From Gammaproteobacteria bacterium (GTDB taxonomy: Bacteria > Pseudomonadota > Gammaproteobacteria > HK1), in contig JAJFJV010000019.1 in assembly GCA_021773635.1 (NCBI GenBank), forward strand, positions 62,001 through 126,000: DNA of 64,000 bases, read 5' to 3'. Positions 1 through 49,301 of this stretch are shown piece after piece. Both the position numbers and the translations under genes were made by a program. The notes below the pieces were generated by a model. That model was not told where the DNA came from, did not search any database, and saw nothing but the letters and a program-made list of their open reading frames with translations. Numbering within the stretch: position 1 is the first letter of the stretch; each line of letters opens with the position of its first letter.

Positions 1-239
1 CTTTCCTGCATCCCCATCGCCGCCTCCACAGCCTGTTCCGCAGTCGGAAAGGTACACATAATCTCATCGCCAATGGTCTTGATAAAAGCACCCTGGTGGC
101 GGTCGATTTGTTCCGACATCAGCGCCAGACATTGGGCCACAAGTTCACGGGCGGTACTGTCGCCCAAGCTGTCGTAGAGTTGCGTACTGCCGCTGATATC
201 AGCGAAAACGATAGCGAGGGTCGTTTTTTTTCGGCTCAT
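1..239 (-). CDS. Class III adenylate/guanylate cyclase, N-terminal part (cut by window edge)
   Basis: Reading leftward from the ATG at 237-239, about 79 codons are present before the window ends. The start of a class III nucleotide cyclase catalytic domain is visible: a beta strand ending in FADISGST with the first metal-binding Asp, then a helix, then FIKTIGDEIMCTF with the second metal-binding Asp. Family knowledge: this domain makes cAMP or cGMP from the NTP as a dimer. Whether an FHA or other domain follows cannot be seen. It lies 25 bases downstream of the PPIase gene on the same strand, so the two may be co-transcribed. No clear Shine-Dalgarno precedes the ATG. A second, unrelated cyclase (class I) lies at 7448-10315. 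Confidence 0.85.
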   Translation of the reverse strand, partial: MSRKKTTLAIVFADISGSTQLYDSLGDSTARELVAQCLALMSEQIDRHQGAFIKTIGDEIMCTFPTAEQAVEAAMGMQE

Positions 240-264
240 ACCGGAAGATTCAGGGAGTCGATGG

Positions 265-1293
265 CTATTTTGGAGCAGCCTTATGCCCGGATTCTGCAAC
301 CCGTAACCGCAACCGCCATTCCTCCAGTCTTTCCTTTGCCACGGTCGCACCGTTGGCTGTACGAATCTCGCTCAGTGCACCCTTGGCCGCCTGCAGGGCG
401 ATATTCTTGCGTAACAGCGTACGGATCTGGCCTGACACCTGTTCCAGTGGCAGCGCCTGTCCGGAGACCAGCGCACCCCGCTTGATGAGATGCACGCCAT
501 CTTTTTCCTGCACGGGGGGGGCGAGGTCGTTTTCCTTCAGTTTACCGAGCATTTCCCGGATGTCAGGCTGCAGGGTAGAGAGCTTGAGCAACCCCATATA
601 ACCATCGTTTATGCGACTGGCCGCATGTTGGGAATGCTTTTCCACGGCTTTTCTGAAAGAAAGCTTGCCAGCACGTATAGCCTTGTCGATACGTGCAGCC
701 TCGGCGGTCACCCTGACAACTTCCTCCACTTTGGCATCGGCGGAGACAGGCAAAAATATCTGCCACAGATGGATCCGGTCACCAATGCGAAACTGCGCCT
801 GATTCTGCTCGTAAAAGGCCTTTACCTGCTCCGCCGAGGGATAGCTTTCCGGCAATTTTTCCAGTGCCTTCTTGCGCAAATAGGTATCCACCAGCACCTG
901 TTCCGAGCGCTGTCGCATCAGGTAAGCAACCCGCGGATCATGGTGCCAATTCTCCGCTTTTGCCACCGACACCACCGCACGGCGTGCCAACTCACGATCG
1001 ACAAAACCGGCAAACAGCTTTTCATCCTCCAGCACCTTTTTACGCTGAGGCGGTTTGAGCAGCCCGAACAGGGTCTCAAGATCAGCGAATACCAACCCTG
1101 TATCCTGACTCACACTGCCCGGAGGCGGCGTACCTGCCTTGACGGCCGACAGGGTCGACGGTGTGCCCTGTTTTTCCTTGCTATCCGAACCACCGCCAAA
1201 GAGATCGCTAAAGGAAAAAGCCGAAGCCATTGCCGGCAACAGCAGCAGGATCAGCGCAAGGACGGGGGGACGAACAATAGCGTGCGACATCAT
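265..1293 (-). CDS. Secreted parvulin-type peptidyl-prolyl isomerase
   Basis: The product is about 342 residues. The start is taken at the ATG pair 1288-1293, because GGAGAG lies about 10 bases upstream and a signal peptide follows at once (hydrophobic core, cleavage near ASA-FSF). The mature part has a SurA/PpiC-like helical N-domain. A parvulin core follows, from about residue 170, with DRIHLWQIFLP, the SFRKAVEKHSQ segment and a GVHLIKRG end strand. Family knowledge: such proteins fold or chaperone exported proteins in the periplasm. The open frame runs about 40 codons further upstream, but that segment lacks a signal peptide and has unlike composition. The next gene downstream is the cyclase. 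Confidence 0.8.
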   Translation of the reverse strand: MMSHAIVRPPVLALILLLLPAMASAFSFSDLFGGGSDSKEKQGTPSTLSAVKAGTPPPGSVSQDTGLVFADLETLFGLLKPPQRKKVLEDEKLFAGFVDRELARRAVVSVAKAENWHHDPRVAYLMRQRSEQVLVDTYLRKKALEKLPESYPSAEQVKAFYEQNQAQFRIGDRIHLWQIFLPVSADAKVEEVVRVTAEAARIDKAIRAGKLSFRKAVEKHSQHAASRINDGYMGLLKLSTLQPDIREMLGKLKENDLAPPVQEKDGVHLIKRGALVSGQALPLEQVSGQIRTLLRKNIALQAAKGALSEIRTANGATVAKERLEEWRLRLRVAESGHKAAPK

Positions 1294-1537
1294 GATTTCG
1301 ATACTCTCCGGGACAATGGGTGGCGGTAGTTTGTGGGGCCGGGAAATAGCTGTCAAACCGTTCATCCCCGGTTTGCGGGGCAGGTCCTTTACCCGATTCC
1401 GGGCGATCAATAACATAGCGGTACCCGTCGCGAGGACCTCTCGCCGTTATGGCCTGGGCAATGGTCACATCCCCATGACCACGAACTGGAGCTACAAATC
1501 ATGTACCAAAGCAACCGGATTCTGCGCTAGTTTTCCG

Positions 1538-2323
1538 ATGTCTGCCCCCCGCCCCTTTTCCTGGAGCTCCGCGGCGAGCAGCGAGACGGGCGCGGTACGC
1601 CGCATCAATGAGGACGCGTTACTCGAGCGACCCGACATCGGCCTGTGGGTGGTTGCAGACGGGATGGGGGGGCATGATGCAGGGAATGTTGCCAGCCAGC
1701 TGATAGTCGAGTGTCTGGATGACTTTAGCGCCGGTCCACGCCTTGGCAACAAGGTGGAGCGGCTGGAAGCTCGCCTGACAGAAGTTAACCAGCGCTTGCG
1801 AAATCTGTCTACGGAGCGTGGCGTACAGACCATCGGCAGTACGGTGGCTGTGCTGCTCATTCACGACTCATTTGCGCTCTGCCTGTGGGCTGGTGACAGT
1901 CGCATCTACCGTTTCCGGGATGGCCGACTCAAAAAACTTGTTCAGGATCACACGCTGGTGGAAGAGATGGTGCAAAGCGGCCTTTTGGGTCGGGAAGAAG
2001 CAGACAAACATCCCCAGGCCAATATCATTACCCGTGCGATCGGCGCCATGGACCCCGTTTATCTGGATATGGAGATCTATGAACTGCGAGATCGGGATAT
2101 TTTTCTGCTGTGCTCGGACGGACTGGACAAGGAAGTTGAAGAGGACGAGGTTGCGGCAGTGATCGCCCGGACGCCGATCCCGGAATTGGCAAATTCCCTG
2201 ACTGCCCTCACCCTGTCCCGGGGGGCGCGGGACAATACCACCGTCATCGGCTTGCAGGTACACGAAAATTGCAAGCTGGCAACGACCGCAGGCGCCCAGG
2301 ATACCCGGGGCATTAAGCGCTGA
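1538..2323 (+). CDS. PP2C-family Ser/Thr protein phosphatase
   Basis: The product is 261 residues, normal for a stand-alone bacterial PP2C (Stp/PppA type). The motifs occur in order: SETGAVRRINEDA (first acidic metal ligand), VVADGMGGH, the GST beta-hairpin, WAGDSRIYRFRDG, SDGLDKEV and GARDNTTVIGL with the last metal-binding Asp. It should dephosphorylate Ser/Thr phosphoproteins in a Mn/Mg-dependent way. The ATG at 1538 is chosen because the PP2C fold begins directly after it; an in-frame ATG at 1475 is possible. Its stop codon overlaps the kinase start (TGATG), so translation is coupled and the kinase is its likely partner. Confidence 0.92.
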   Translation: MSAPRPFSWSSAASSETGAVRRINEDALLERPDIGLWVVADGMGGHDAGNVASQLIVECLDDFSAGPRLGNKVERLEARLTEVNQRLRNLSTERGVQTIGSTVAVLLIHDSFALCLWAGDSRIYRFRDGRLKKLVQDHTLVEEMVQSGLLGREEADKHPQANIITRAIGAMDPVYLDMEIYELRDRDIFLLCSDGLDKEVEEDEVAAVIARTPIPELANSLTALTLSRGARDNTTVIGLQVHENCKLATTAGAQDTRGIKR

Positions 2324-4854
2324 TGATTAAATTTGACGCACTGCTCAAAGACTTTCTTCGGGGGCGCGCCCAACTGAAGGATATTGAAGCAGCAATCGAG
2401 AAGATCCTGGCAACATTCCCTGATGACACGCAGAAACTGAATGCCGCCCTGTGCAAGGCTCGCGAACAGGGCCTGCCAGACCACGCCTATAACACCCTGC
2501 GCACTAAAATCCCTGGGGCCGATGGAGCATCGGACCTCAATGCCACGCGGCTAAGCCCGGGGCGCGCAAATGCGGGCCACAGCCAAACAGTCCGGAGCGC
2601 GCCGGAAAAGCATCAGGAGTTTCGGGAAGGCTCCGTCCTTCGCGAGCGCTTTCGCCTGCTCTCAACCCTGGGCGAGGGTGGTATGAGTACGGTCTGGAAG
2701 GCCCTGGACCTGCTGAAAGAAGAAGCCCGGGACCCAAACCCCTACGTCGCCGTCAAATTACTTTCGGACGATTTCCGTGAGCACCCGGAGGCATTTATTG
2801 CACTGCAGCGGGAGTCCAGCAAGGCCATGCGGCTGGCCCACCCGAATATTGCCACGGTTTACGACTTTGACCGCGACGGCCACACCATCTACATGACCAT
2901 GGAGGTCCTGGAAGGCAAGGATCTCACCGCCGTCATCCGCCATATCCCTGCCGAGGGCCTGCCGGCAGATGAGGCGATGAATCTTATCGAGCAACTCGCT
3001 TCCGGACTCAGCTATGCCCACGCGGCCAATCTGGTCCACTCGGATCTAAAGCCAGGCAATGCCTTTCTCACCAGGGAGGGAGTGGTCAAACTACTCGACT
3101 TTGGTATCGCGCGAGCCTCCAAAACCCACGGCGATGAAGGCGGCGAGATCACGCTATTCGACCCCGGAAAACTGGGTGCACTCACCCCTGCCTACGCCAC
3201 CCTGGAGATGTTCGAGGGCCTGGAGCCGGACCCGCGCGATGATATCTACGCCCTCGCAATTATCAGTTACCAGTTGTTCAGTGGCCGCCACCCCTATGGA
3301 AGACAGAGCGCCCCAAAGGCCCTCAGGAAAAATCTTTCACCGGCACCAATTTTGCGCCTCAACAAACGCCAGAATCGCGGCCTGTTACGTGCCCTCGCCC
3401 TGCACCGTAGCGAGCGCACCGCCTCTGTAGATGAATTTCTCGAAGAGATACGACCGCGAAAAAGCTACACCCGACAAATTGTTGCCGCGAGCATCGCGGG
3501 GATGCTGCTGACCACGGGGCTAGCCTATAAGCCGGTCAGTGAATTCAGCAAGGCAGGCAAAGAGGAAGCCGTAATCGGCCTGTTACTCGGTGGAGATACC
3601 AACGACATACGCGCCGGGCTTGAACAATTGCGCACTTTCGATCACACCGGGCGGCGCCACATCAAGCAAGACGAGCGGGCACGCAGCGCATTGACCGGCT
3701 ATTACCTTGGCCTGAAAGACAAGGCGGTCGCCACCTATGACTATCCGGTAGCGGAAAGGGCGCTCAATACCCTCAGCGCCCTGTATCCGGACTCCGCCAG
3801 GGTGTTTAAAGCCCAGAGTGAACTGAAGGCTCAAAAGGAGGCCCTGCTTGCCACCCTCGATGAGCAATACCGGCTCCACTTGAAGCGGGGCACCCTGCTA
3901 CCCATGGAAAAAAAGGAGGACATCCACGATGTGCGCCGTATTATCGCCCGCATTGACCCGGACAATCCGCTACTCAGGGATCCCCGGCTACCGCTACGCT
4001 ACGAGGACCTGATTCAGACAGCGATGAAGGCCAATAAAAAACAACGGACACAGGCTTTGCTGATGGCCACCGCCACCTACCTGCCGAAGAACAAGGCACT
4101 CAGCCGGCTACGCCTTGAAGTTGCAGGGAAATTAAAGCGCCGACAGCAGAACCTGCTGATAGCAACGCTCCAAAAACGGCTGCGGCGGCAGGAGAACAAG
4201 CTGGCATCTTTAAAAGATTTTCAGCGGGCGCGCAAAGATTTGGTTCAGCTTGTGGCGCTCAATCCTGAAGACCCGCTGCTCCGAAGGCTGCAAGGCAAAT
4301 TGAAAATGGCTTTTCAGCGCGCCATTGAGGGCGATATTCGTAACCGACGCTGGAAATCCAGTGAATCCCTGCTATTTCAATTCGCCACACTTTTTAACCT
4401 CTCCGATCTGTTAAAACACCGCGCATCTCTTTCCAGTGCAGAGGCCACGGCAGGCTTTCAGCTGGCGATAACCCCGGAACGCGAGGTGGCCATCGGCCGC
4501 CGCCAGGATACGATACGAGGCCTGCTAACCGGGCCACCGTTGCCTGATAACTGGGAAAATGCCCTGCGTGCGCCGTTCAGGGAATTGATCGCCCTGCTAC
4601 CGGCTGGTGACCCGCGTCTGCAACCCGTCGTTGCCCAAATTGCCCAACACTACCTGGCGCAACCACAACGTTCCCGTGGTGCGAATCGCTTTGCCGAGGC
4701 GCTCGCCCTGTTAAAACGCGGACCCACACCCTTGCCGGCTGCCAGTCCAATCAATGCCTCCGTGGAGATCATTGGCGCGGGTCTGTCGATACGCGACGAT
4801 ACCCGTATGGATGCCTTTCCCCGGGGCGATATTTCCCCACCAGAACCGGGATAG
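2323..4854 (+). CDS. Transmembrane Ser/Thr protein kinase (non-RD type)
   Basis: The product is 843 residues. An N-terminal helical region (1-100) precedes a Hanks-type kinase domain at about 108-375. The domain has GEGGMSTVWKA (P-loop, 117-127), AVKLL with the ATP-site Lys near 145, H-S-D-LKPGN (239-246) and DFG (259-261). The HRD arginine is replaced by Ser and the usual APE is degenerate (ATLEM), so it is a non-RD kinase that should not need activation-loop phosphorylation. One membrane segment lies at about 385-401. A roughly 430-residue, basic, helix-rich C-terminal part with TPR-like spacing follows; its side of the membrane is presumed to be the periplasm. It is translationally coupled to the PP2C gene and heads a run with the next two membrane or secreted proteins. 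Confidence 0.9.
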   Translation: MIKFDALLKDFLRGRAQLKDIEAAIEKILATFPDDTQKLNAALCKAREQGLPDHAYNTLRTKIPGADGASDLNATRLSPGRANAGHSQTVRSAPEKHQEFREGSVLRERFRLLSTLGEGGMSTVWKALDLLKEEARDPNPYVAVKLLSDDFREHPEAFIALQRESSKAMRLAHPNIATVYDFDRDGHTIYMTMEVLEGKDLTAVIRHIPAEGLPADEAMNLIEQLASGLSYAHAANLVHSDLKPGNAFLTREGVVKLLDFGIARASKTHGDEGGEITLFDPGKLGALTPAYATLEMFEGLEPDPRDDIYALAIISYQLFSGRHPYGRQSAPKALRKNLSPAPILRLNKRQNRGLLRALALHRSERTASVDEFLEEIRPRKSYTRQIVAASIAGMLLTTGLAYKPVSEFSKAGKEEAVIGLLLGGDTNDIRAGLEQLRTFDHTGRRHIKQDERARSALTGYYLGLKDKAVATYDYPVAERALNTLSALYPDSARVFKAQSELKAQKEALLATLDEQYRLHLKRGTLLPMEKKEDIHDVRRIIARIDPDNPLLRDPRLPLRYEDLIQTAMKANKKQRTQALLMATATYLPKNKALSRLRLEVAGKLKRRQQNLLIATLQKRLRRQENKLASLKDFQRARKDLVQLVALNPEDPLLRRLQGKLKMAFQRAIEGDIRNRRWKSSESLLFQFATLFNLSDLLKHRASLSSAEATAGFQLAITPEREVAIGRRQDTIRGLLTGPPLPDNWENALRAPFRELIALLPAGDPRLQPVVAQIAQHYLAQPQRSRGANRFAEALALLKRGPTPLPAASPINASVEIIGAGLSIRDDTRMDAFPRGDISPPEPG

Positions 4855-7320: not shown

Positions 7321-7447
7321 CCCTGGCCAAAGCTATAGAAAACTTTTTGTGGGCCGCTAAACAGAGCAAGTCGTCGCGTGTTGTGCAGGAAATATCCGCT
7401 TCCTTTCCGGGCGACAACACCGACACCACGCTATCAGGAACCAATTG

Positions 7448-10315
7448 GTGAGCAAACAAAGCCCCGCTGCCATTCCACCCGCACCGGGCCCTATCCCGGA
7501 TCACGCGCCGGATCGCACCAAATTGCGCGAGATCAAACGGCGCTTTCTGCTTTGCAACCATGAACGACTGGCGCGCACCTTTGGTTTACTAGGTCCGAAG
7601 CAGCAGGAATATCTTTCACTGCTACCGCTGCTTTTCCACTGCAATCATCCCCTGTTTCCAGGTTACGTCAGCAACGACACGCCGGCGGGTATTTCCGATT
7701 ACACACCCGATCGAAAAACCCTGGGGCTGGCGCGCCAAATGGCAAAAAGCTTTGATTTTCGTCGCCATCCGGTGCGCCAGCGCATGATTTACGGGATCTA
7801 TCTTATGGGTAGCAGCGGCACCATTGCCTACTCTCACGAGAGCGATCTGGATATATGGATATGTCATCAACCCGGGCTGAACGCCACCGCAAAGAAGGAG
7901 CTGAAGAAAAAATGTGAGCTGATCAGCCGCTGGGCTGAAAGCGTGGACCTGGAGGTTCACTTCTTTCTCATGGTGGATGAAGAGTTTCGTGCCGGTGGAC
8001 TCAGCGCACTCTCCACCGAAAGCAGCGGTACTGCCCAGAAGCAACTTTTACTCGATGAGTTCTACCGTACCGGCCTGCTGCTCGCCGGACGCTATCCCGT
8101 CTGGTGGCTGGTGCCCCCTGAACAGGAAAAAAATTACGCCCGCTTTGTTGAAGTTTTGTACCACAAACGATTCATAAAAAAGGGTGAATGCCTGGACTTT
8201 GGTCCCGTCAACGCCATCGCACCCGGGGAATTTCTTGGAGCGGCCCTTTGGCAGCTCTACAAGGCGGTCACTTCCCCCCACAAATCCCTCCTCAAGATTC
8301 TCGTCCTGGAGTGCTATGCCACCTCCTTCCCGGATATTGAAACCCTCAGCGTTCGCTACAAAAAAGCGGTCTACGGGGGGAACAACAAGCTGGATGATCT
8401 CGATCCCTATGTGTTGATGCTGGAACTGATCGCAGAACATCTGAACGCACATGAAGATACGGAACGTCTCCAACTTGCCCAGCGCTCCTTTTACTTCAAG
8501 GTGGAAATTCCCCTTAGCCGGCGCTCGACCCTGAAAGAGCGCAGCTGGCGTTATAAATTATTGCAGCGCCTGGCAACACGCTGGGGTTGGGATCAGGCCC
8601 AGCTTCACCTGCTGGATACCCGTGAGCACTGGAAAATCGGGGCGGTTATAGATGAACGCCAACACTTGATCCGCGCCCTCACCCACAGCTACAAGCTACT
8701 CACCCGGGTAGCCGATCAAACTGCGGACAAGAGCATGGTCAGCGACCATGACATGACCGTCCTGGGACGCAAGTTATTTGCCGTCTTTGAACCCAAGGCG
8801 GGCAAGATCGATATCATTAACCAGGGAATTTCCCAGGATCTCACTGAAGCCCACCTGCTCCTGCAGCGCAATAACTCCAGGAAAAGCAGCATGAACTGGA
8901 GCCTGCACCGGGGCATATCAACAACGGATGAAAAAACCCTCGGCACCTCGCTCAAACGCAGTCATTCCCTGCTGGAACTGGTGGCATGGTGCCAGTTTAA
9001 CGGTCTGCTGAGTTCACGCACCCGGCTGAACCTGGAGCCGGCTGACAGCCACCCATCGAGCCGGGAAATCGAACAATTATGCACCGACCTTCGGCGCCAT
9101 TTTCCAAGCTCTCGAGCAGGCCATGCTGCGGTGGAAGAGCTGGAGCGGCCACCACAGCTGCTCCGCGGCGTACTGGTGATCAATCTGGGCGTGGATCCCA
9201 TGGAGCACTACACCCGACAAGGTATGAGCCTTACCAGCAACAAGGTAGACGCCCTGAACTATGGTAATCGCGAGGAAAACCTCGTGCAGACCGTGGACTA
9301 TCTCCATCTGAACAGCTGGGGTGAGCTGATGAACTTCCATTTCAGCGGACTGGAAGGCCTGATGGAATGTCTGTGCAAGTACCTGCGCAGTCTTGGTATG
9401 GACAGTCAGCCTTCGGAAATCCCGGTTGTCTGCCTCTGCTACACCCCGGGATATGCAGAATCCATTAGCTATCGCCTGCGGGATTTGCTGGCCTCCCTTA
9501 CCCACTGGTATCTAAAACCGTCCAGGAAAACACGCCGACGCTACGTACTCCGGGCCCACTCCCAATATCACACCTTCCTGGCGACCGCGGGAAATATCCA
9601 TCCCGAGTTCTCGGGATCCGCCGCAAAACTCAGGACTACGCTACAAGGTGCCAACGAGAAATTCACCACCACGACTTTCGATCCGGCCTCATCGGGCCCG
9701 GGACCACTGGCCGAAATCTTTAAAGTAAACAAGAAGGATGTGGTGCAGTGCTTCTATCTTCGCCAGGGCAATGCGGCCCAGCTCTATATCCTGGACGAAT
9801 TCGGCACGCTGTTTCAGGACCGGGTCCATTTTTTTACCGAGACCGCCCTGCAGCACCATTTCCAACGTTTCTTCAGGGCCATTGGTCAACGCCGAAACGA
9901 GGCAACTGGGCCACTGCGTACTGCCTATTACTTACTTAACAAAAAGGGCGTTCCCACCGCCTATAGCCTGCAGACACGCCCTGTACCGGTAGAGTCTGAC
10001 GCCCCACCACCGCTGCATATTCAGGTCATTGCCCAGGTCATCGGCGGCAAAACGGAATTCACCGTGTACTGCAACGGCAAGGAATTTTCCACGCTGGAAT
10101 ATGGTCAGGAGGTATTTCAGCAGGTCGCAGTATATGTACTGGAACATCGTCATGGCCGGGAAAAATATCCGGTTTACATCACCGACATCGACCTCTCCGC
10201 CCTGCATCTGGAGGACGGCACAGCGGGGGGCTTACAGACTATCCATTACCTCCGCTATAAACGGCGCATTGAGCAGCACCTGAATAGCACGCTGGCGGGC
10301 CTTGAGGAAACCTAG
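7448..10315 (+). CDS. cyaA: Class I adenylate cyclase
   Basis: The product is 955 residues, somewhat longer than the enterobacterial enzyme (about 850). The N-terminal half carries the nucleotidyltransferase-type catalytic motif LMGSSGTIAYSHESDLDIWI, with GS and the paired metal-binding Asp residues near 120-140. The flanking RQRMIYGIYLMG and LEVHFFLM strands are typical of CyaA. The C-terminal half is the regulatory domain. The enzyme makes cAMP from ATP in the cytosol. The start could be TTG 7445 or GTG 7448; the GTG is preferred because AGGAA ends 7 bases before it. It is monocistronic and meets the next, opposite gene tail to tail with a four-base overlap. Confidence 0.95.
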   Translation: MSKQSPAAIPPAPGPIPDHAPDRTKLREIKRRFLLCNHERLARTFGLLGPKQQEYLSLLPLLFHCNHPLFPGYVSNDTPAGISDYTPDRKTLGLARQMAKSFDFRRHPVRQRMIYGIYLMGSSGTIAYSHESDLDIWICHQPGLNATAKKELKKKCELISRWAESVDLEVHFFLMVDEEFRAGGLSALSTESSGTAQKQLLLDEFYRTGLLLAGRYPVWWLVPPEQEKNYARFVEVLYHKRFIKKGECLDFGPVNAIAPGEFLGAALWQLYKAVTSPHKSLLKILVLECYATSFPDIETLSVRYKKAVYGGNNKLDDLDPYVLMLELIAEHLNAHEDTERLQLAQRSFYFKVEIPLSRRSTLKERSWRYKLLQRLATRWGWDQAQLHLLDTREHWKIGAVIDERQHLIRALTHSYKLLTRVADQTADKSMVSDHDMTVLGRKLFAVFEPKAGKIDIINQGISQDLTEAHLLLQRNNSRKSSMNWSLHRGISTTDEKTLGTSLKRSHSLLELVAWCQFNGLLSSRTRLNLEPADSHPSSREIEQLCTDLRRHFPSSRAGHAAVEELERPPQLLRGVLVINLGVDPMEHYTRQGMSLTSNKVDALNYGNREENLVQTVDYLHLNSWGELMNFHFSGLEGLMECLCKYLRSLGMDSQPSEIPVVCLCYTPGYAESISYRLRDLLASLTHWYLKPSRKTRRRYVLRAHSQYHTFLATAGNIHPEFSGSAAKLRTTLQGANEKFTTTTFDPASSGPGPLAEIFKVNKKDVVQCFYLRQGNAAQLYILDEFGTLFQDRVHFFTETALQHHFQRFFRAIGQRRNEATGPLRTAYYLLNKKGVPTAYSLQTRPVPVESDAPPPLHIQVIAQVIGGKTEFTVYCNGKEFSTLEYGQEVFQQVAVYVLEHRHGREKYPVYITDIDLSALHLEDGTAGGLQTIHYLRYKRRIEQHLNSTLAGLEET

Positions 10316-17271: not shown

Positions 17272-18189
17272 ATGAGTGACCACCACCATCACAATCATGG
17301 CCATAGCCTTGCGGGCACCGATGAAAAGCGAGTGTTGCAAGCATTGCTGCTGACCGGCGGCTTCATGCTGGTAGAGGTGGTGGGCGGAGTCCTTTCCGGC
17401 TCCCTCGCGCTGCTGGCCGATGCCGGTCACATGCTTGCCGATACCGTGGCCCTCGGACTCGCCTGGCTGGCGATACGAGCGGCGCGCAAGCCGGCCGATG
17501 AACGGCGCTCCTATGGCTATCAGCGCTTTCAAGTGCTGGCCGCCTTCGTCAACGGCGGCGCGCTATTTCTGGTGGTGGCCTGGATCGGTGTAGAGGCCGT
17601 GGATCGGCTACTGGAGCCGAGACCAGTGCTCGGCGGCATGATGCTGGTGGTCGCCATCATCGGCCTGCTGGTCAATCTCGCAGCCTTTGCTCTGTTGCAT
17701 GGTGGCGGGCGGGAAAATATCAATATCCGGGCCGCCGCACTGCACGTGCTGGGGGATCTGCTGGGCTCCGTCGCGGCCATCGTTGCGGCGCTGGTGATCC
17801 TCTGGACCGGCTGGTTTCCCATCGATCCGCTGCTCTCGGTGTTGGTGGCCGCACTAATTCTCCGCAGCGCGTGGGCGGTAGTGCGTCAATCCGGACACAT
17901 ATTGCTGGAGGGAACGCCCAGTGATATCAATTCCGAAATTGTTAGCCAGGTACTGAGTGAAACGGTGCCGGGTATCAAGGATGTCCATCACCTGCATGCC
18001 TGGTCCCTGACGCCAGAAAAGCGCATCGTCACCCTGCACGCCCGCGTGGAGGAAGGTGCGGACGAGTGCGCGGTGATACTGGGAATCAAGGCCGAGCTAT
18101 CGGCACAATTTCAGGTCGATCATGTCACCGTCCAGATCGAACGTGGCCACTGCCTGGATGAAGACTGTCTGCACGAGCGCAAACATTAA
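17272..18189 (+). CDS. Cation diffusion facilitator (zinc/cadmium exporter)
   Basis: The product is 305 residues from ATG 17272 (a GTG at 17263 is also open). A His-rich N-terminus ([10 protein letters not shown]) is followed by six membrane helices. The paired metal sites are HMLADT in helix 2 and HVLGDLLGS in helix 5, the H-D/H-D set of Zn-type CDF proteins (ZitB/CzcD). A cytosolic ferredoxin-like domain ([22 protein letters not shown]) ends the protein with a His/Cys tail. It exports Zn2+ by proton antiport. It is divergent from aroC. Confidence 0.92.
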
Positions 18190-18323
18190 AGGGGTCTCTA
18201 ATAACCCGTCACACCAGCGGGGCCTGTCCCGCCGGAATGAAGACTTGAACTGTTAGTACAGGGTGTCCACTAAACCGCAGGAACTATCCCGTCCGTTCGA
18301 ACGACTTGATAGGGAGGCTTTGA

Positions 18324-18420
18324 TTTATTCTGGACGAAGTAGATTGTGATTCAAAATGTTCAGCTTTGAGGCGCTGATCGCACGTAATAGCTGGCTATTG
18401 CGAAGAGCAGCAACGATAAA
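18324..18420. repeat. Dispersed repeat, copy 2
   Basis: This is the counterpart of 5854-5953 and again lies shortly after the 3' end of a gene. It contains a small hairpin (AATAG, CTGG, CTATT). The tail up to about 18475 (ending in AGATCAGAGCTTCC) may also belong to the element but is not shared with copy 1. Confidence 0.7.
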
Positions 18421-18532
18421 GATGGACACTTTGGGCGCAAGATATCGAGTTCACGAATAGATCAGAGCTTCCTTAGGTCGGCCATCATTCGAAACACGGA
18501 AGAAGTCGAAGTACTTTTGTGTACGCTAACTC

Positions 18533-18631
18533 TTAGCCCTTCTTGGCAGCTTTTTCAGCCCGCTTTTCTTTCAACGTCTTTGCCGGCTTCTTCTTGGCCT
18601 CTTTATTTCCTTTATCCTTTCCCTTTGCCAT
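18533..18631 (-). CDS. Very small Lys-rich protein
   Basis: An open frame of 32 residues with start ATG 18629-18631 and stop TAA. An AGAGGAAAA ribosome site lies at the right distance upstream. The composition is extreme: about 14 Lys, with KEAKKKPAKTLKEKRAEKAA, predicted as a highly basic helix. I recall similar short Lys/Ala proteins, unannotated or hypothetical, in other proteobacteria. It could bind nucleic acid; that is a guess from charge. The rest of the gap 18190-18771 holds repeat DNA and no other gene that I can support. Confidence 0.6.
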   Translation of the reverse strand: MAKGKDKGNKEAKKKPAKTLKEKRAEKAAKKG

Positions 18632-18771
18632 GTCATTTTCCTCTTGTGGTTAATGCTTCATTCACCGCAATGCTTGGCCTAACGCCTAACGTTCAAGCTG
18701 TGCGGTGCAAACAATTAGAACACGGGAAGTTGAGTCTGCCCCCTATTGCCTTTTAAAGCCAATCATATTCA

Positions 18772-19914
18772 TTAACGAAATTTGTGTGGATATTCTTTCT
18801 CGCGGTTTTGAAATGAAATAATTTTTGGATTTTGAATTACTCCATTACGGATTTCTATGGATTTTGAAATTGTTTTATTCTCTTTCCACATATTTGGCCC
18901 TCCAATAACTTTTGGCAACAATGGAAGCAATGCTTTTGAAATTTCCCATGAGGCAGAATCCCAATAAAAACTAGGACTGTGATCTACTGCATAATAATAT
19001 TTATCTTCCACTTCAAACATCGGGTTTTCAAACGATGTCGGTTTGGCACACCAAAACCCCATTCCTTCGTCACAGCTTATATCAATAATCAGAGTGCCTT
19101 TCATCAACTTATCTGCGTCATGTTCGGATACAAACATTTTAGGATGGTCTGTATCTTGAAGGGTTCCGTTAACAATTATTTGAACATCTGATAATGCTTC
19201 TGAAAATGGACGGGTAACGCCGTCAGATTCAACTGCAAGTAAATTTCCCGAATCATCATTTTTCATTTGTTTAAACGTTACTCCGGGCAATTGATCACTC
19301 ACATCTGTTGCTACCCGACCCGTATAGACCGTAATGTCATGAAATCCTTGACCTTGCAATGCATATACCGCCCCCCGACTCACCGATCCGAAGCTGAGCA
19401 CGACTGCTTTTCGTGGTTTTCCATAATTGCCAACAATTCCGACAAGACTTATCGCATGATTTACTCCAGCATAGCCTGCCATTTCATTGTTTTTATAAAA
19501 AACATGCATAGCCTTATCGCCTGTTCGGCTCCATGTAAACATCTCTTCCCACGCAATAAGGGTTAATTTTCTTTCAATTGATACTTGGGTAATTTCTTTC
19601 TGTTGTACACAATGCGGCCAACCCCAGACAATTGCTCCGGCTCGCACCTGAGACAAATCTTTTGCCAGAGGTTTTGGCATTAGCACACAATCGGAACCTT
19701 TCAGTATTTCTTCTCTGGAAGAAACTCGCCCTGATGTAAGTTTGGCTAAGGTGTTATCACCCATGCCAAACCTCAACCCATAGCCTTCTTCGAAAGTGAT
19801 TTGTTTTCGTTCTCTCTGAGGAATGAGGTTTATATGTTCCGGATGAATGGCTACTCGTTTCTCGTTCTCTTTCAGCGATTTTCTAATCACGCCCACAGTT
19901 AAGAGTTGTGTCAT
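18772..19914 (-). CDS. N5-(carboxyethyl)ornithine synthase-like dehydrogenase (alanine dehydrogenase family)
   Basis: The product is 380 residues, starting MTQLLTVGVIRKSLKENEKR at ATG 19912-19914 with AAGGGGA upstream. The N-terminal part matches the AlaDH/PNT fold (ENEKRVAIHPEH). The Rossmann domain carries VVLSFGSVSRGAV, and NHAISLVGIVGNYGK and IIDISCDEGMGFW are typical of the CEOS group. The known reaction is NADPH-dependent condensation of pyruvate with ornithine or lysine. The gene is much richer in A+T than everything around it and is flanked by repeats, so it was probably acquired by transfer. The exact substrate is unproven. Confidence 0.8.
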   Translation of the reverse strand: MTQLLTVGVIRKSLKENEKRVAIHPEHINLIPQRERKQITFEEGYGLRFGMGDNTLAKLTSGRVSSREEILKGSDCVLMPKPLAKDLSQVRAGAIVWGWPHCVQQKEITQVSIERKLTLIAWEEMFTWSRTGDKAMHVFYKNNEMAGYAGVNHAISLVGIVGNYGKPRKAVVLSFGSVSRGAVYALQGQGFHDITVYTGRVATDVSDQLPGVTFKQMKNDDSGNLLAVESDGVTRPFSEALSDVQIIVNGTLQDTDHPKMFVSEHDADKLMKGTLIIDISCDEGMGFWCAKPTSFENPMFEVEDKYYYAVDHSPSFYWDSASWEISKALLPLLPKVIGGPNMWKENKTISKSIEIRNGVIQNPKIISFQNREKEYPHKFR

Positions 19915-19971
19915 ATTTTTTCCCCTTGCTTCATTTAACCGGCGGTCTCTAGTTCCTTCCGGTTGCTTCGG

Positions 19972-20086
19972 TCGGTAGCCTGGATGCAACAAAGTAAAAT
20001 ACAGGAAAAATATCCGCTTACGGTGTCAACCAACCCAGGCCCCATTTCCCGGATTCCGTTTCCCTTCATCCAGGCTACGGGCTACT
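19972..20086. repeat. REP-like inverted pair
   Basis: GGTAGCCTGGATG (19973-19985) and, inverted, CATCCAGGCTACGG (20067-20080) followed by the CCCGGATTCCG part of the same repeat type. It sits between the transferred gene and prmB. Confidence 0.55.
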
Positions 20087-44816: not shown

Positions 44817-44927
44817 CACCCTACGCTTCCCGGGGTGGCATGCCGCCCCGGGAACCCCTCTCTCTCCAGTAATCCACCAAGCGGGTGGATTCCCCGGCTG
44901 TGCCGCCGCTACAATGGCGCCGCCCCC

Positions 44928-46223
44928 ATGAATGACATCCCACAGAAGATTGGCAAGTACACCCTCGCCGAAGAGCTTGGGCGGGGTAGTATGGGGGTGG
45001 TTTATTCGGCCCACGATCCCTTTTCTGACCGGATGGTGGCACTCAAGGTCGCTCATCCCCAGTTCACCGACAAGAGCCACGAGGGTGAACGCTTCCGCAA
45101 GCTTTTCTTCAACGAGGCCCATGCCGCGGGAAGCCTGGATCACCCCAACATCCTGCATATCTACGATGCCGATATGGCGGGGGATCTGTGCTATATCGTG
45201 ATGGAACATGTGGCGAGCGCCAAGACCCTGAACGAGTACTGTGCGCCTGATACCTTACTCCCGGCACGAGCGGTGGTTGGCATCATCTACAAGCTCGCCA
45301 AGGCCCTGGACTATGCCCATCGTCAGGGCGTTATACATCGCGATATCAAGCCCAACAATATCCTGCTCACCATGGATCATGATGTCCGGCTCGCGGATTT
45401 CAGCATCGCCATGATCACCCGGGCCGACAACAAAAATACCCAGTTCACCGGTTTTCTCGGCTCCCCGCTGTATATGTCTCCGGAGCAGATACTGGAGGAC
45501 ACGCTCACCCAGAGTACCGACATCTTTTCCCTCGGGGTGGTGATGTATCAGGCGCTCAGCGGCCACCAGCCCTTTCGCGCCGGTAACCTCAACGCCATTA
45601 GCCACAAGATCACCCATGAGGAGCCGCCGCCCCTTGGTCAATACCGCAACGACCTTCCGGATGGCCTGGCCTACACTGTAGGCCGCATGCTTAAGAAAAA
45701 CCCCGCCCGACGCTATGCCAGTGGGCTTGAGCTTGCCGCCGATCTTGCCCTGATTTATGAGGATCTGGATGGCGTCGCGACCGAGGATGCACTGCGTGAA
45801 AAATTCAGCTCTATCAAGCAGCTAGGCTTCTTCAAGGGCTTCGGGGAGCAAGATATCTGGGAGTTGGCACGCTCCTGCAACTGGCACAATTATCCCGTAG
45901 GCAGCACCATCATCCGTGAAGGTGAGGCCGATCATTCCTTTTACATCGTGCTCGCCGGTCTCGTGGGTATCGAAAAAAATGAACACGAGGTGGATCAACT
46001 CCAGGAGGGTGATTGCTTTGGTGAAATGGGCTATCTGAGCAAGGCCAGGCGCAGTGCCACGGTCACAGCGAAGACCGATGTCTCGCTGATGCAGGTCAAC
46101 GCCGCCACCATCGACAGCGCTGCAGAGAGTACCCAGTTACGCTTTCACAAAGTCTTCGTCCGCATCCTCATCGCCCGCCTCTCCGACACCACCGCCGCCC
46201 TTGCCCGCCTCAACCCGGTCTAG
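44928..46223 (+). CDS. Ser/Thr protein kinase fused to cyclic-nucleotide-binding domain
   Basis: The product is 431 residues from ATG 44928; earlier in-frame codons lack kinase similarity and no strong Shine-Dalgarno is seen. The kinase domain (10-280) has GRGSMGVVY, K40, HRDIKPNN (137-144) and SPEQ, but DFS (157-159) in place of DFG. A CNBD (about 303-415) follows, with EGEADHSFYIVLAG and a phosphate-binding cassette FGEMGYLSKARRSATV that keeps the Glu and Arg needed for cAMP or cGMP. It has no membrane span. It likely couples cyclic nucleotide level to protein phosphorylation. The fetAB genes follow 15 bases later. Confidence 0.9.
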   Translation: MNDIPQKIGKYTLAEELGRGSMGVVYSAHDPFSDRMVALKVAHPQFTDKSHEGERFRKLFFNEAHAAGSLDHPNILHIYDADMAGDLCYIVMEHVASAKTLNEYCAPDTLLPARAVVGIIYKLAKALDYAHRQGVIHRDIKPNNILLTMDHDVRLADFSIAMITRADNKNTQFTGFLGSPLYMSPEQILEDTLTQSTDIFSLGVVMYQALSGHQPFRAGNLNAISHKITHEEPPPLGQYRNDLPDGLAYTVGRMLKKNPARRYASGLELAADLALIYEDLDGVATEDALREKFSSIKQLGFFKGFGEQDIWELARSCNWHNYPVGSTIIREGEADHSFYIVLAGLVGIEKNEHEVDQLQEGDCFGEMGYLSKARRSATVTAKTDVSLMQVNAATIDSAAESTQLRFHKVFVRILIARLSDTTAALARLNPV

Positions 46224-46238
46224 ACCTCACCCTACGCC

Positions 46239-46853
46239 GTGACCCTGCTGGACATACAAAACCTTCGCCCCTGCATTTTTACTCGGGCACTGAATTTGAG
46301 CCTTGCCAACGGCGAGAGCATCGGTCTTGGCGGATCATCCGGGAGTGGGAAATCCCTGCTGCTGCGTGCCATTGCAGACATGGATCTGCACGAGGGCGAT
46401 GTCTTGCTCGATGGTGTATCCCGGTCAGCTTTTAGTGCCCCCGAATGGCGCCGCAAGGTAGGCTTACTACCCCCTGAAAGCCGCTGGTGGAGGGATTCCG
46501 CGGGTGAGCATCTGCGAATGCCGACTGCCGCCCCACTCGATGAACTGGGGCTCAACCCATCCATCCTTGAACAGCCAGTGACGGAGCTTTCCTCCGGCGA
46601 ACGCCAGCGCCTCGCCCTCGCCCGCCTGATAGCCAACAACCGACCCCGGGTATTATTGCTGGATGAACCCACCGCTAACCTCGACAGCTTGAATAGCCGA
46701 CGCATTGAGGAACTGGTTGCGGCCTACCGCCATGCCACCGGGGCCGGCGTAATCTGGGTAAGTCACGATCCGGACCAACTGCGACGGGTCAGTAACCGTC
46801 AGTACCGCATTGAAGCCGGCGAGCTACATTCCGTCGGGGAGGCCGTCCAGTGA
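46239..46853 (+). CDS. fetA: FetA-like ABC ATPase
   Basis: The product is 204 residues from GTG 46239. It has Walker A GGSSGSGKS, signature LSSGERQRLALARL, Walker B VLLLDEPTANLD and H-loop WVSHDPDQ. The small size and the following UPF0014 permease identify the FetAB (YbbLM) iron exporter type. It overlaps fetB by 4 bases (GTGA) and lies close behind the kinase-CNBD gene, so it is likely co-transcribed. Confidence 0.87.
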   Translation: MTLLDIQNLRPCIFTRALNLSLANGESIGLGGSSGSGKSLLLRAIADMDLHEGDVLLDGVSRSAFSAPEWRRKVGLLPPESRWWRDSAGEHLRMPTAAPLDELGLNPSILEQPVTELSSGERQRLALARLIANNRPRVLLLDEPTANLDSLNSRRIEELVAAYRHATGAGVIWVSHDPDQLRRVSNRQYRIEAGELHSVGEAVQ

Positions 46854-47641
46854 TTCCTGTCGGCCCTCTGGAACTGGGTATTGCCGGATTTCTCGTCCTG
46901 CTCACCGGTATTTGCGCCCACCTCCTGCGCCTCGGCATCAGCCGCAACATCGCCATTGCCGCGGTGCGCACAGTGGCCCAGTTACTGCTCATCGGTCTGG
47001 TGCTCAAGGCCCTGTTTGCCAGCACCAACGCCCTGTTTATCGGCCTCCTGTCCCTGCTCATGCTGGCCATCGCCGGACGTGAGGTGCTGGCACGCCAGCA
47101 CCGGCGCCTCAAGGGCTGGTGGGGTTACGGCATTGGCACCACATCAATGTTCCTGTCCTCCTTCACGGTCACCATCCTGGCCCTGCAGGTCATCATCGCC
47201 CCCGATCCCTGGTACACCCCCCAGTACGCCATCCCCCTGCTTGGCATGCTGCTTGGCAACACCATGACCGGGGTCTCCCTGGGGCTGGATCGCCTTACTG
47301 AGGGAGCGTGGGAGCGGCGTGAGGTCATCGAGGCTCGCCTGATGCTGGGAGAGAGCTGGAACGAGGCCGTTGGCGATATCCGCCGCCAAAGTATTCGTAG
47401 TGGCATCATGCCCATCATCAATTCCATGGCTGCTGCGGGGGTGGTCAGCCTGCCGGGCATGATGACCGGACAAATACTCGCCGGCGCCTCACCGGTACAT
47501 GCAGTGAACTACCAAATCCTGATCATGTTCCTCATCTCGGCCGGCACCCTGCTCGGCACCATGGGGGCCGTCTGGATGGGCTCGCGTCGCCTCTTTGACC
47601 ACCGCGAACGTCTGCGCCTGGACCGCTTGCATCGCCCCTGA
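46850..47641 (+). CDS. fetB: FetB-like permease (UPF0014)
   Basis: The product is 263 residues with about seven membrane helices. It has the UPF0014 marks AAVRTVAQLLLIGLVLK, GNTMTGVSLGLDRL and MPIINSMAAAGVVSLPGMMTGQILAG. In E. coli FetAB exports iron under oxidative stress. The start GTG overlaps fetA. Confidence 0.92.
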   Translation: MIPVGPLELGIAGFLVLLTGICAHLLRLGISRNIAIAAVRTVAQLLLIGLVLKALFASTNALFIGLLSLLMLAIAGREVLARQHRRLKGWWGYGIGTTSMFLSSFTVTILALQVIIAPDPWYTPQYAIPLLGMLLGNTMTGVSLGLDRLTEGAWERREVIEARLMLGESWNEAVGDIRRQSIRSGIMPIINSMAAAGVVSLPGMMTGQILAGASPVHAVNYQILIMFLISAGTLLGTMGAVWMGSRRLFDHRERLRLDRLHRP

Positions 47642-47732: not shown

Positions 47733-49301
47733 ATGCCTCGGAAGACAAGGATACGAGCCAGCGCAATCCTCACCGCCGTACTCTGGGTTTGCGGCGCCCT
47801 GCAGACCCATGCGGCGGTCCCGGCAGGCAATGCACTGGAGTTGCTGCTCCACTGCGCGCCCTTTGAGGCAGCCCGGGGCAGCTGTGACTTTCGCCTGCGT
47901 CAGGCCAAAGCGGTACTGGAATTTGAGGCTCGTCTGGGAGAGTTCCCCCTGCCAAAACCCCGTTTTATCTCCTATCCGCAGCGCGGGGATATCACGGCAA
48001 TCCTGTTTCTGGTGGATACCAGCGATCCGGGGCGCGGCACAGTGGTAGCCAAAAATTCTCAACAGATCCTGAAACTGATGGCACATGGCAAGCCACACCA
48101 GCACTTTGGTCTCGCCCGCTTCGATGCCGACTACCACCTCCTCAGCCCGCCCGGAAGCAGCCCCGGCCAACTGCGCAAAGCTACCGCGGCAATCCGCGCC
48201 AACGGGCGCACCACCGAGCTCTATCGCAGCGCCCTGCAGGCACTGGACACCCTGGCGAACTATCCGGCCCGGCGACGCGCACTATTCATTTTCTCCGATG
48301 GCATTGCTGAAGACCGGGCCTACTTTCACCGTGACGTCGTAGACAAGGCCCGCCTCCACGGAATTACCATCTACGGACTCGGCTTTGCCCGCTCAGTATC
48401 ACAATCGGTCGCACTCCAGACCCTGCGTCGCCTGAGCGATGAAACCGGCGGGCTTTTTCTGGCAGCCAACCCCAAGCTGCAGTTACCGGCAGACTTTATG
48501 GCTGATCCCTTCGCCGCCCTGGATCGCGGTGGCCGGATTGTCCTCGACCTGTCCACGGCCATGACTACCGACTTGGGAAAAGAGGCCCCGCTTACCGTGG
48601 TGGCCCGTACCGCCGGAGGCAGCTATCCCGCCACCGTAACCGTTCAATTACCACCAGCGCCAACACCCAGGGTGCCGGCAGAACCCGTCCCCGCTCCGTT
48701 AGTTGTGCAAACGCCCCCGCCGGTTTCCATCCCCGCACCAATGCCTGCACCGAGACCGGCAACGCCGGTAACAAAGAGCGTCAACCCCCTGCTCTGGCTC
48801 AGCCTGCTGGGGGCCTTTGCACTGGTCGGCGGCTCGCTCGCCTTCCTGCGCGTTCGTCGCCGTTCCGATAGCACCCACACCGGTTCCAAACCCAAGGCAG
48901 ATGAGCCGCCGCCTATACAGGCCTTCGTGGAACTCAGGGACGGGAGCGACCGACAGGTTGATATCACCACCGACTGCTTTCGCATCGGGCGACACTCGGA
49001 TAACGACCTCACCCTGGAAGATAGCTCTCTCTCCCGCCACCACGCGGAGATTCGGCGTCAGAAGGAAGGGAGTTTCCGCCTTAGTGATCTGAACTCCCTG
49101 AACGGCGTGTACGTCAACGGCGTGCCGGTGGATACCGCGATCATCAAGGACGGAGACGCCCTGGAGCTGGGTGATGTCAGTATGGATTTTGGCACCCTGT
49201 CCGCGCAAGACAATGAAGTGACAAGGATGGTAAAAAGCACAGGCCCGCGTACCCCGGCCACCTTTGGTCGCGATGATGAAACCGAGGTGAATGAAGACTG
49301 A
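47733..49301 (+). CDS. Membrane-anchored VWA-FHA protein
   Basis: The product is 522 residues from ATG 47733 (GGAAA upstream; ATG 47718 also open). A signal peptide (1-27) precedes an exported VWA-like domain (about 85-270) whose metal site is altered (LVDTSDPGRG instead of DxSGS). A Pro-rich linker (305-345), one membrane span (352-374) and a cytosolic FHA domain (396-480) follow. The FHA phosphothreonine pocket is intact: FRIGRHSDNDLTL, SLSRHHAEI and LNSLNGVYVNG. The acidic tail contains Thr residues that kinases could mark. It should link an envelope-side event to phosphoprotein binding inside. It follows the kinase-CNBD-fetAB run. Confidence 0.87.
   Translation: MPRKTRIRASAILTAVLWVCGALQTHAAVPAGNALELLLHCAPFEAARGSCDFRLRQAKAVLEFEARLGEFPLPKPRFISYPQRGDITAILFLVDTSDPGRGTVVAKNSQQILKLMAHGKPHQHFGLARFDADYHLLSPPGSSPGQLRKATAAIRANGRTTELYRSALQALDTLANYPARRRALFIFSDGIAEDRAYFHRDVVDKARLHGITIYGLGFARSVSQSVALQTLRRLSDETGGLFLAANPKLQLPADFMADPFAALDRGGRIVLDLSTAMTTDLGKEAPLTVVARTAGGSYPATVTVQLPPAPTPRVPAEPVPAPLVVQTPPPVSIPAPMPAPRPATPVTKSVNPLLWLSLLGAFALVGGSLAFLRVRRRSDSTHTGSKPKADEPPPIQAFVELRDGSDRQVDITTDCFRIGRHSDNDLTLEDSSLSRHHAEIRRQKEGSFRLSDLNSLNGVYVNGVPVDTAIIKDGDALELGDVSMDFGTLSAQDNEVTRMVKSTGPRTPATFGRDDETEVNED

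Follow-up and report, generated by a model that had tools for sequence, protein, structure and literature searches.

Can a cyclic nucleotide govern protein phosphorylation directly in a bacterium? The eukaryotic effectors of cAMP and cGMP are largely kinases; those known from bacteria are mainly transcription factors. The question is raised by a gene in a gammaproteobacterial stretch of 64,000 nt (the window, by which we mean the whole stretch of DNA that was analysed), the product of which joins a Ser/Thr kinase to a cyclic-nucleotide-binding domain (CNBD). The open reading frame at 44928-46223 on the plus strand starts with ATG and translates into 431 aa, in which the Pkinase and cNMP_binding matches both lie far over the Pfam cut-off and no transmembrane-like segment was found (maximal 19-residue Kyte-Doolittle mean 1.24). 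The soluble Hanks-type kinase with a C-terminal CNBD that an earlier note had read from the letters alone thus holds, in its coordinates and in both domains. An in-frame GTG is located upstream at 44835, and the similarity of the relatives starts only near MNDIPQKIGKY. Close orthologues (L055 and L056, 87-89% identity, in other genomes) both have DFS at the position of the DFG motif, so the fusion is not a chance product. The features of the gene are as follows.

44928-46223, plus strand: soluble Ser/Thr kinase with C-terminal CNBD (ORF, Pfam; orthologues L055 and L056)
44958-45716, plus strand: PknB-like protein kinase domain, residues 11-263 (Pfam PF00069, E 4.6e-48)
45396-45404, plus strand: DFS codons, D157-F158-S159, replacing DFG (GATTTCAGC; read from the sequence, 28/28 in its own clade)
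45405-45485, plus strand: activation segment up to the SPE motif, residues 160-186 (alignment)
45759-45875, plus strand: helical linker and N3A-like lead-in to the CNBD, residues 278-316 (AlphaFold2 helices 278-282, 286-297 and 307-316)
45885-46121, plus strand: CNBD, residues 320-398 (Pfam PF00027, cNMP_binding, E 1.4e-17)
46017-46064, plus strand: phosphate-binding cassette FGEMGYLSKARRSATV, residues 364-379, with Gly365, Glu366, Gly368, Arg375 and Ser376 (alignment of 184 fusions)
46125-46211, plus strand: long C-terminal helix of the CNBD, residues 400-428 (AlphaFold2)

The AlphaFold2 model of the protein reached a mean pLDDT of 85.6 and a pTM of 0.65, with low confidence at residues 164-168; the placement of its domains relative to each other is uncertain. 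PknB is the best PDB match of the kinase domain by sequence (E 2.7e-42) and also the nearest kinase fold of the model (28-33% identity, TM 0.83-0.91 on target), and the nearest solved structures of the CNBD are Plasmodium PKG and PKA regulatory subunits (PKA-R). The residues that define Hanks-type kinases (PF00069) are all there (K40, E63, H137-R138-D139, N144 and D157), with Ser159 at the place of the usual DFG glycine; this leaves the class assignment standing because active DFS kinases exist, TbDYRK being one. The window protein is a Hanks-type kinase joined to a canonical CNBD, and phosphotransfer activity is predicted from its residues.

The search for homologues with the same fusion and for their neighbours, proposed in the earlier note, yielded a large family. 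In a scan of relatives with one genome per species, 465 stretches were found to encode relatives and 78 distinct loci kept, nearly all labelled Gammaproteobacteria and mostly from metagenome assemblies; full fusions from these loci and from the relatives' genomes were aligned, 140 at first and 184 later. The family layout is a PknB-like kinase followed by a single CNBD in ~430 aa, to which the window protein conforms, most of its residues aligning end to end with the 184 members. A spread sample of the class Gammaproteobacteria comprised 369 genomes, of which at least 71 carry the fusion, by a hand count of end-to-end matches among the matches listed; in a sample of the phylum the end-to-end matches with E <1e-75 were, among the matches listed, confined to this class. 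The source genome (2.55 Mb) contains eight kinase matches, thirteen CNBD matches and three proteins with both: the window protein and two paralogues, one on contig C14 (L017) with DFG and the cassette FGEMGYLARARRTATI, and one on contig C22 (L016) with DFG and the degenerate cassette FGESGFIAGKVRPVGI.

Whether the CNBD is likely to bind a cyclic nucleotide depends on its cassette, which the earlier note had called apparently competent. This description was borne out at the level of residues, the Gly, Glu and Arg of cNMP binders being found in FGEMGYLSKARRSATV, which lines up with PKA-type cassettes at every residue: Glu366 corresponds to PKA Glu200, Arg375 to Arg209, and Gly344 in the beta2-beta3 loop to Gly169, and the residues of a canonical cassette (PF00027; G365, E366, R375 and G344) are all present. 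Gly344 and Gly365 occur in all 184 fusions, Glu366 in 183 and Arg375 in 175 (28/28 in the clade of the window protein), and position 368 is Gly, Ser or Ala in 180. In the relevant passages of Kannan 2007 (PMC2246266), the co-conserved counterparts of Gly169 and Arg209 are tied to cAMP binders. The nucleoside-binding PKA-R of kinetoplastids carry Glu and a polar residue at the positions of Gly368 and Arg375 (PMC10959531), substitutions absent from the window protein. We therefore predict, from the cassette, that the domain binds cAMP or cGMP, and the Ser that follows the Arg is equally compatible with both.

A supply of cyclic nucleotide is expected in the same cell. Both cyclases that the earlier note had placed in the window were recovered, the class I gene intact and the class III gene with its end only.

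1-371, minus strand: class III cyclase with C-terminal FHA domain, partly inside the window and crossing its left edge
7445-10315, plus strand: class I adenylyl cyclase, presumed source of cAMP (Pfam PF01295, E 2.7e-122)

The matched domain of the class III cyclase lies at C11:61751-62230, and the gene runs left on this contig (L022:1093-2121). Two further class III cyclases are located elsewhere in the genome, making three in all, together with a CRP-type CNBD regulator. Class I cyclases produce cAMP, and all three class III cyclases show, in a motif reading by eye, Lys and Asp at the usual ATP-selecting positions; this pattern is typical of adenylyl cyclases, making cAMP the expected ligand. 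Of 71 genomes with the fusion, 63 have a class III cyclase, as against 26 of 49 genomes that lack a strong match (p 1.6e-5 by Fisher's test), a comparison confounded by ancestry and genome size. The FHA class III cyclase gene is divergent from a PP2C-like phosphatase gene (1139-2323, plus strand), which is directly followed by the gene for a second Ser/Thr kinase of 843 aa with a C-terminal extension (2323-4854, plus strand), a setting that suggests that cAMP synthesis is controlled by phosphorylation.

Among the genomic links that tie this architecture to cyclic nucleotides, the most direct is a gene pair found in two relatives: downstream of the kinase-CNBD gene, in the same orientation, lies a gene for a class III cyclase-AAA-TPR protein, at a distance of ~195 nt in L133 and ~32 nt in L134.

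L133:2025-6653 and L134:1538-6012, same strand: kinase-CNBD gene and class III cyclase-AAA-TPR gene

In L134, a gene for a cyclopropane-synthase-like methyltransferase comes after the cyclase gene. Other contexts differ. Kinase-CNBD genes of the sister clade usually flank pgi (encoding glucose-6-phosphate isomerase), often near genes for a CBS protein and for phosphonate metabolism: pairs around pgi were seen in L078-L131 (e.g. L084:5989-12030, where both kinases have DFS; pgi in 40 loci), frequently with CBS-domain and PEP mutase genes alongside. In L057-L060, L064 and L065, a window-type orthologue is followed by genes for a CheY-like receiver and a metallo-beta-lactamase-fold hydrolase, which could be a cyclic-nucleotide phosphodiesterase.

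On this basis we favour, with a probability of about 0.6, a soluble PknB-type Ser/Thr kinase that is regulated through its own CNBD by a cyclic nucleotide, most probably cAMP; the reading draws directly on the architecture, the catalytic residues, the cassette, the DFS clade, the cyclases of the genome and the gene pairs of L133 and L134. Some observations run against it. The cassette of the L016 paralogue in the same genome is degenerate, six genomes with the fusion have neither a class I nor a class III cyclase, and on the tree of 184 fusions a single loss of the cassette Arg accounts for a subclade with seven members (L043, L148 and L150-L154; example cassette FGEAGFIHPSESPESV), with sporadic losses elsewhere. 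This subclade retains the fused domain, which tells us that a CNBD can persist without canonical binding, and it possibly senses another ligand or none. Loss of the cyclases did not predict loss of the cassette: the six cyclase-less genomes keep the Arg, and the genomes in which Arg-less members occur have cyclases.

These same genomes and this subclade fit an alternative in which the kinase is active and the CNBD serves as a dimerisation or docking module, or as a sensor of some other ligand, with cyclic nucleotides having no direct effect; the modelled helix 400-428 could dimerise as in CRP. We regard this as the strongest competitor, though an unlikely one, since the near-universal Glu366, Gly344 and Arg375 are hard to explain without selection for binding a cyclic phosphate, and the adjoining cyclase gene in L133 and L134 also weighs against it. 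A ligand other than the expected one, cGMP instead of cAMP, would make the protein a bacterial analogue of PKG in its ligand too. This appears rather improbable given the cAMP-producing class I cyclase and the ATP-selecting residues of the class III cyclases, and CRP, with a Ser at the same place after the cassette Arg, responds to cAMP. What speaks for cGMP is that this residue is Thr or Ser in 161/184 fusions, as in PKG, that Plasmodium PKG provides the nearest solved CNBDs, and that the equivalent Ser of Bd1971 can contact guanine N2 (PMC6717892).

Does the Ser in the DFG motif leave a working kinase? The Ser that the earlier note had reported is indeed encoded, S159 being read directly from the sequence, and its treatment there as a feature of this one protein is superseded: DFS is fixed in a large clade in which the other catalytic residues are kept. 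Of the 184 aligned fusions, 133 have Ser and 51 have Gly at position 159, and on a tree built without this column and rooted only at the midpoint, the state changed ~9 times and the basal members are mostly DFG. The clade of the window protein has DFS in 28/28 members (branch support 67) and is nested in a 29-member clade with a support of 99; a sister set of ~100 sequences, frequently encoded as tandem kinase-CNBD genes, is nearly all DFS. The motif is common to the orthologues and a large clade, which rules out a mistake in sequencing or assembly and also an isolated pseudogene. DFS as a universal trait of the fusion family was dropped on wider sampling: the first set (124/140 DFS) had been gathered largely via conserved peptides, and the 44 whole-genome additions are mostly DFG. 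Readable non-fusion kinases of the same class, many of them mutually related, have DFG in 30/30.

Lys40, Glu63 and Asp157 are invariant in 184/184 fusions, as are HRD and Asn144, both of which the collection pattern itself required; Thr171 in the activation segment is retained in 151/184. A clade-wide DFS combined with conserved catalytic residues argues for function and not impairment, and the motif looks like a selected, active state in kinases that themselves look active. The sole experimental DFS precedent that we found is TbDYRK of Trypanosoma brucei, in which the natural Ser is needed for activity, S856G leaving 13% and S856A 70% (PMC7136023). That the window protein is a pseudokinase scaffold, with DFS and the CNBD serving allosteric binding without catalysis, is very improbable: a non-consensus DFG glycine is one feature of some pseudokinases, but the invariant catalytic residues, HRD and Asn and the active TbDYRK all speak against it.

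Further hints as to function come from the genes around the kinase.

44829-44852, plus strand: GC-rich hairpin without a T run between a phnD-like gene and the kinase gene (seen in the sequence; unscored as a terminator)
44910-44915, plus strand: TACAAT, 12 nt from the ATG and kept in L055 and L056, a weak candidate for a -10 element without a good -35
46239-46853, plus strand: FetA-like ABC transporter ATPase, 16 nt past the kinase gene (Pfam/NCBIfam)
46850-47641, plus strand: FetB-like permease, UPF0014 (Pfam E 2e-84)
47742-49301, plus strand: VWA protein with C-terminal FHA domain, start codon uncertain (Pfam FHA E 6.2e-20, VWA_2 1e-7)

Scans for sigma-70 promoters and intrinsic terminators returned nothing at the TACAAT or the hairpin, and a start of the operon upstream of the kinase gene is only suggested. 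The kinase gene is likely co-transcribed with the gene for the FetA-like ATPase. The order kinase-fetA is common to L055, L056, L061 and L062 (with a gap of 165 nt in L055), fetB comes next in most relatives of the window's taxonomic family, and the VWA-FHA gene is kept in L055, L056 and L062, i.e. wherever the contig extends that far, outlining a putative kinase-fetA-fetB-vwa/fha operon. Conservation of this operon across the orthologues at large did not hold: it is restricted to the taxonomic family of the window, and the neighbours vary elsewhere. FHA domains bind phosphothreonine, so the VWA-FHA protein would be a reasonable first candidate for a partner or substrate of the kinase. Elsewhere in the window, the G+C content dips to 44% at 18001-20000, compared with 55-63% in the remainder, around an alanine-dehydrogenase/PNT-like gene (18772-19992, minus strand), and this region is possibly of foreign origin.

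How does the protein compare with known systems? It resembles PknB of Mycobacterium tuberculosis in domain fold, sequence and the activation-segment Thr but lacks the transmembrane/PASTA part, has DFS for DFG and carries the additional C-terminal CNBD. The earlier note had seen in it a counterpart in layout to cyclic-nucleotide-dependent kinases, which is fair as an analogy and fails as a statement of descent. PKG, notably that of Plasmodium, also has CNBD and kinase on one chain, but there N-terminal tandem CNBDs, two to four in number, precede an AGC kinase, whereas here a PknB-like kinase precedes a single C-terminal CNBD; the differing domain order and type of kinase led us to reject kinship. 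CRP/CAP shares the cassette Glu and Arg-Ser, with cAMP expected in the same cell, and differs in having a DNA-binding domain where the window protein has a kinase output. Bd1971, a cNMP-EAL phosphodiesterase of Bdellovibrio, is likewise a bacterial enzyme with a fused CNBD, for which cAMP sensing was demonstrated (PMC6717892), but its CNBD is N-terminal and its output is c-di-GMP hydrolysis. TbDYRK, similar in its natural DFS, is a eukaryotic DYRK without a CNBD.

The kinase-CNBD architecture as such is already known from surveys: a passage of Kannan 2007 names 'kinases' among the domains attached to bacterial CNBs under 'Other_bacterial' (PMC2246266), and a passage of a second survey names the CNBD among the domains of Planctomycetota STKs (PMC11032199). 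The gammaproteobacterial family, DFS and cyclase neighbours are undescribed in these passages, and the literature searched yielded no description of the DFS clade, of tandem genes at pgi or of members linked to a cyclase. Searches of the open-access literature likewise turned up no bacterial kinase-CNBD fusion that had been studied by experiment.

For the cAMP-controlled kinase that we favour, the following mode of action can be proposed. The C-terminal CNBD would hold the cytosolic PknB-like kinase in one state until a cyclic nucleotide, most likely cAMP, enters the cassette; the bound nucleotide would then displace the N3A-like and C-terminal helices, altering their contact with the kinase lobe and thereby switching phosphotransfer. 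Inhibition of the apo form and activation by the ligand are most likely, as in PKA and PKG, although this sign is guesswork. The DFS motif most likely keeps the activation segment near DFG-in, limiting the Asp-Phe flip and holding the catalytic Asp in place, in which case control would come from the CNBD rather than from DFG flipping. Tentatively, and well below our confidence in the kinase itself, one may extend this to a picture in which cAMP-dependent kinases, arisen independently of PKA and PKG from a PknB kinase and a bacterial CNBD, are widespread in Gammaproteobacteria. One large branch would be primed by DFS, leaving the output to the cyclic nucleotide alone, and FHA partners, the FHA class III cyclase among them, would connect phosphorylation and cAMP in a closed loop.

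A conserved family with intact cyclic-nucleotide cassettes, present in at least about one-fifth of the sampled gammaproteobacterial genomes, makes direct control of bacterial protein phosphorylation by cAMP a testable proposition. Furthermore, the DFS clade, with its DFG sister proteins as controls, constitutes a natural evolutionary test of the role of the DFG glycine.
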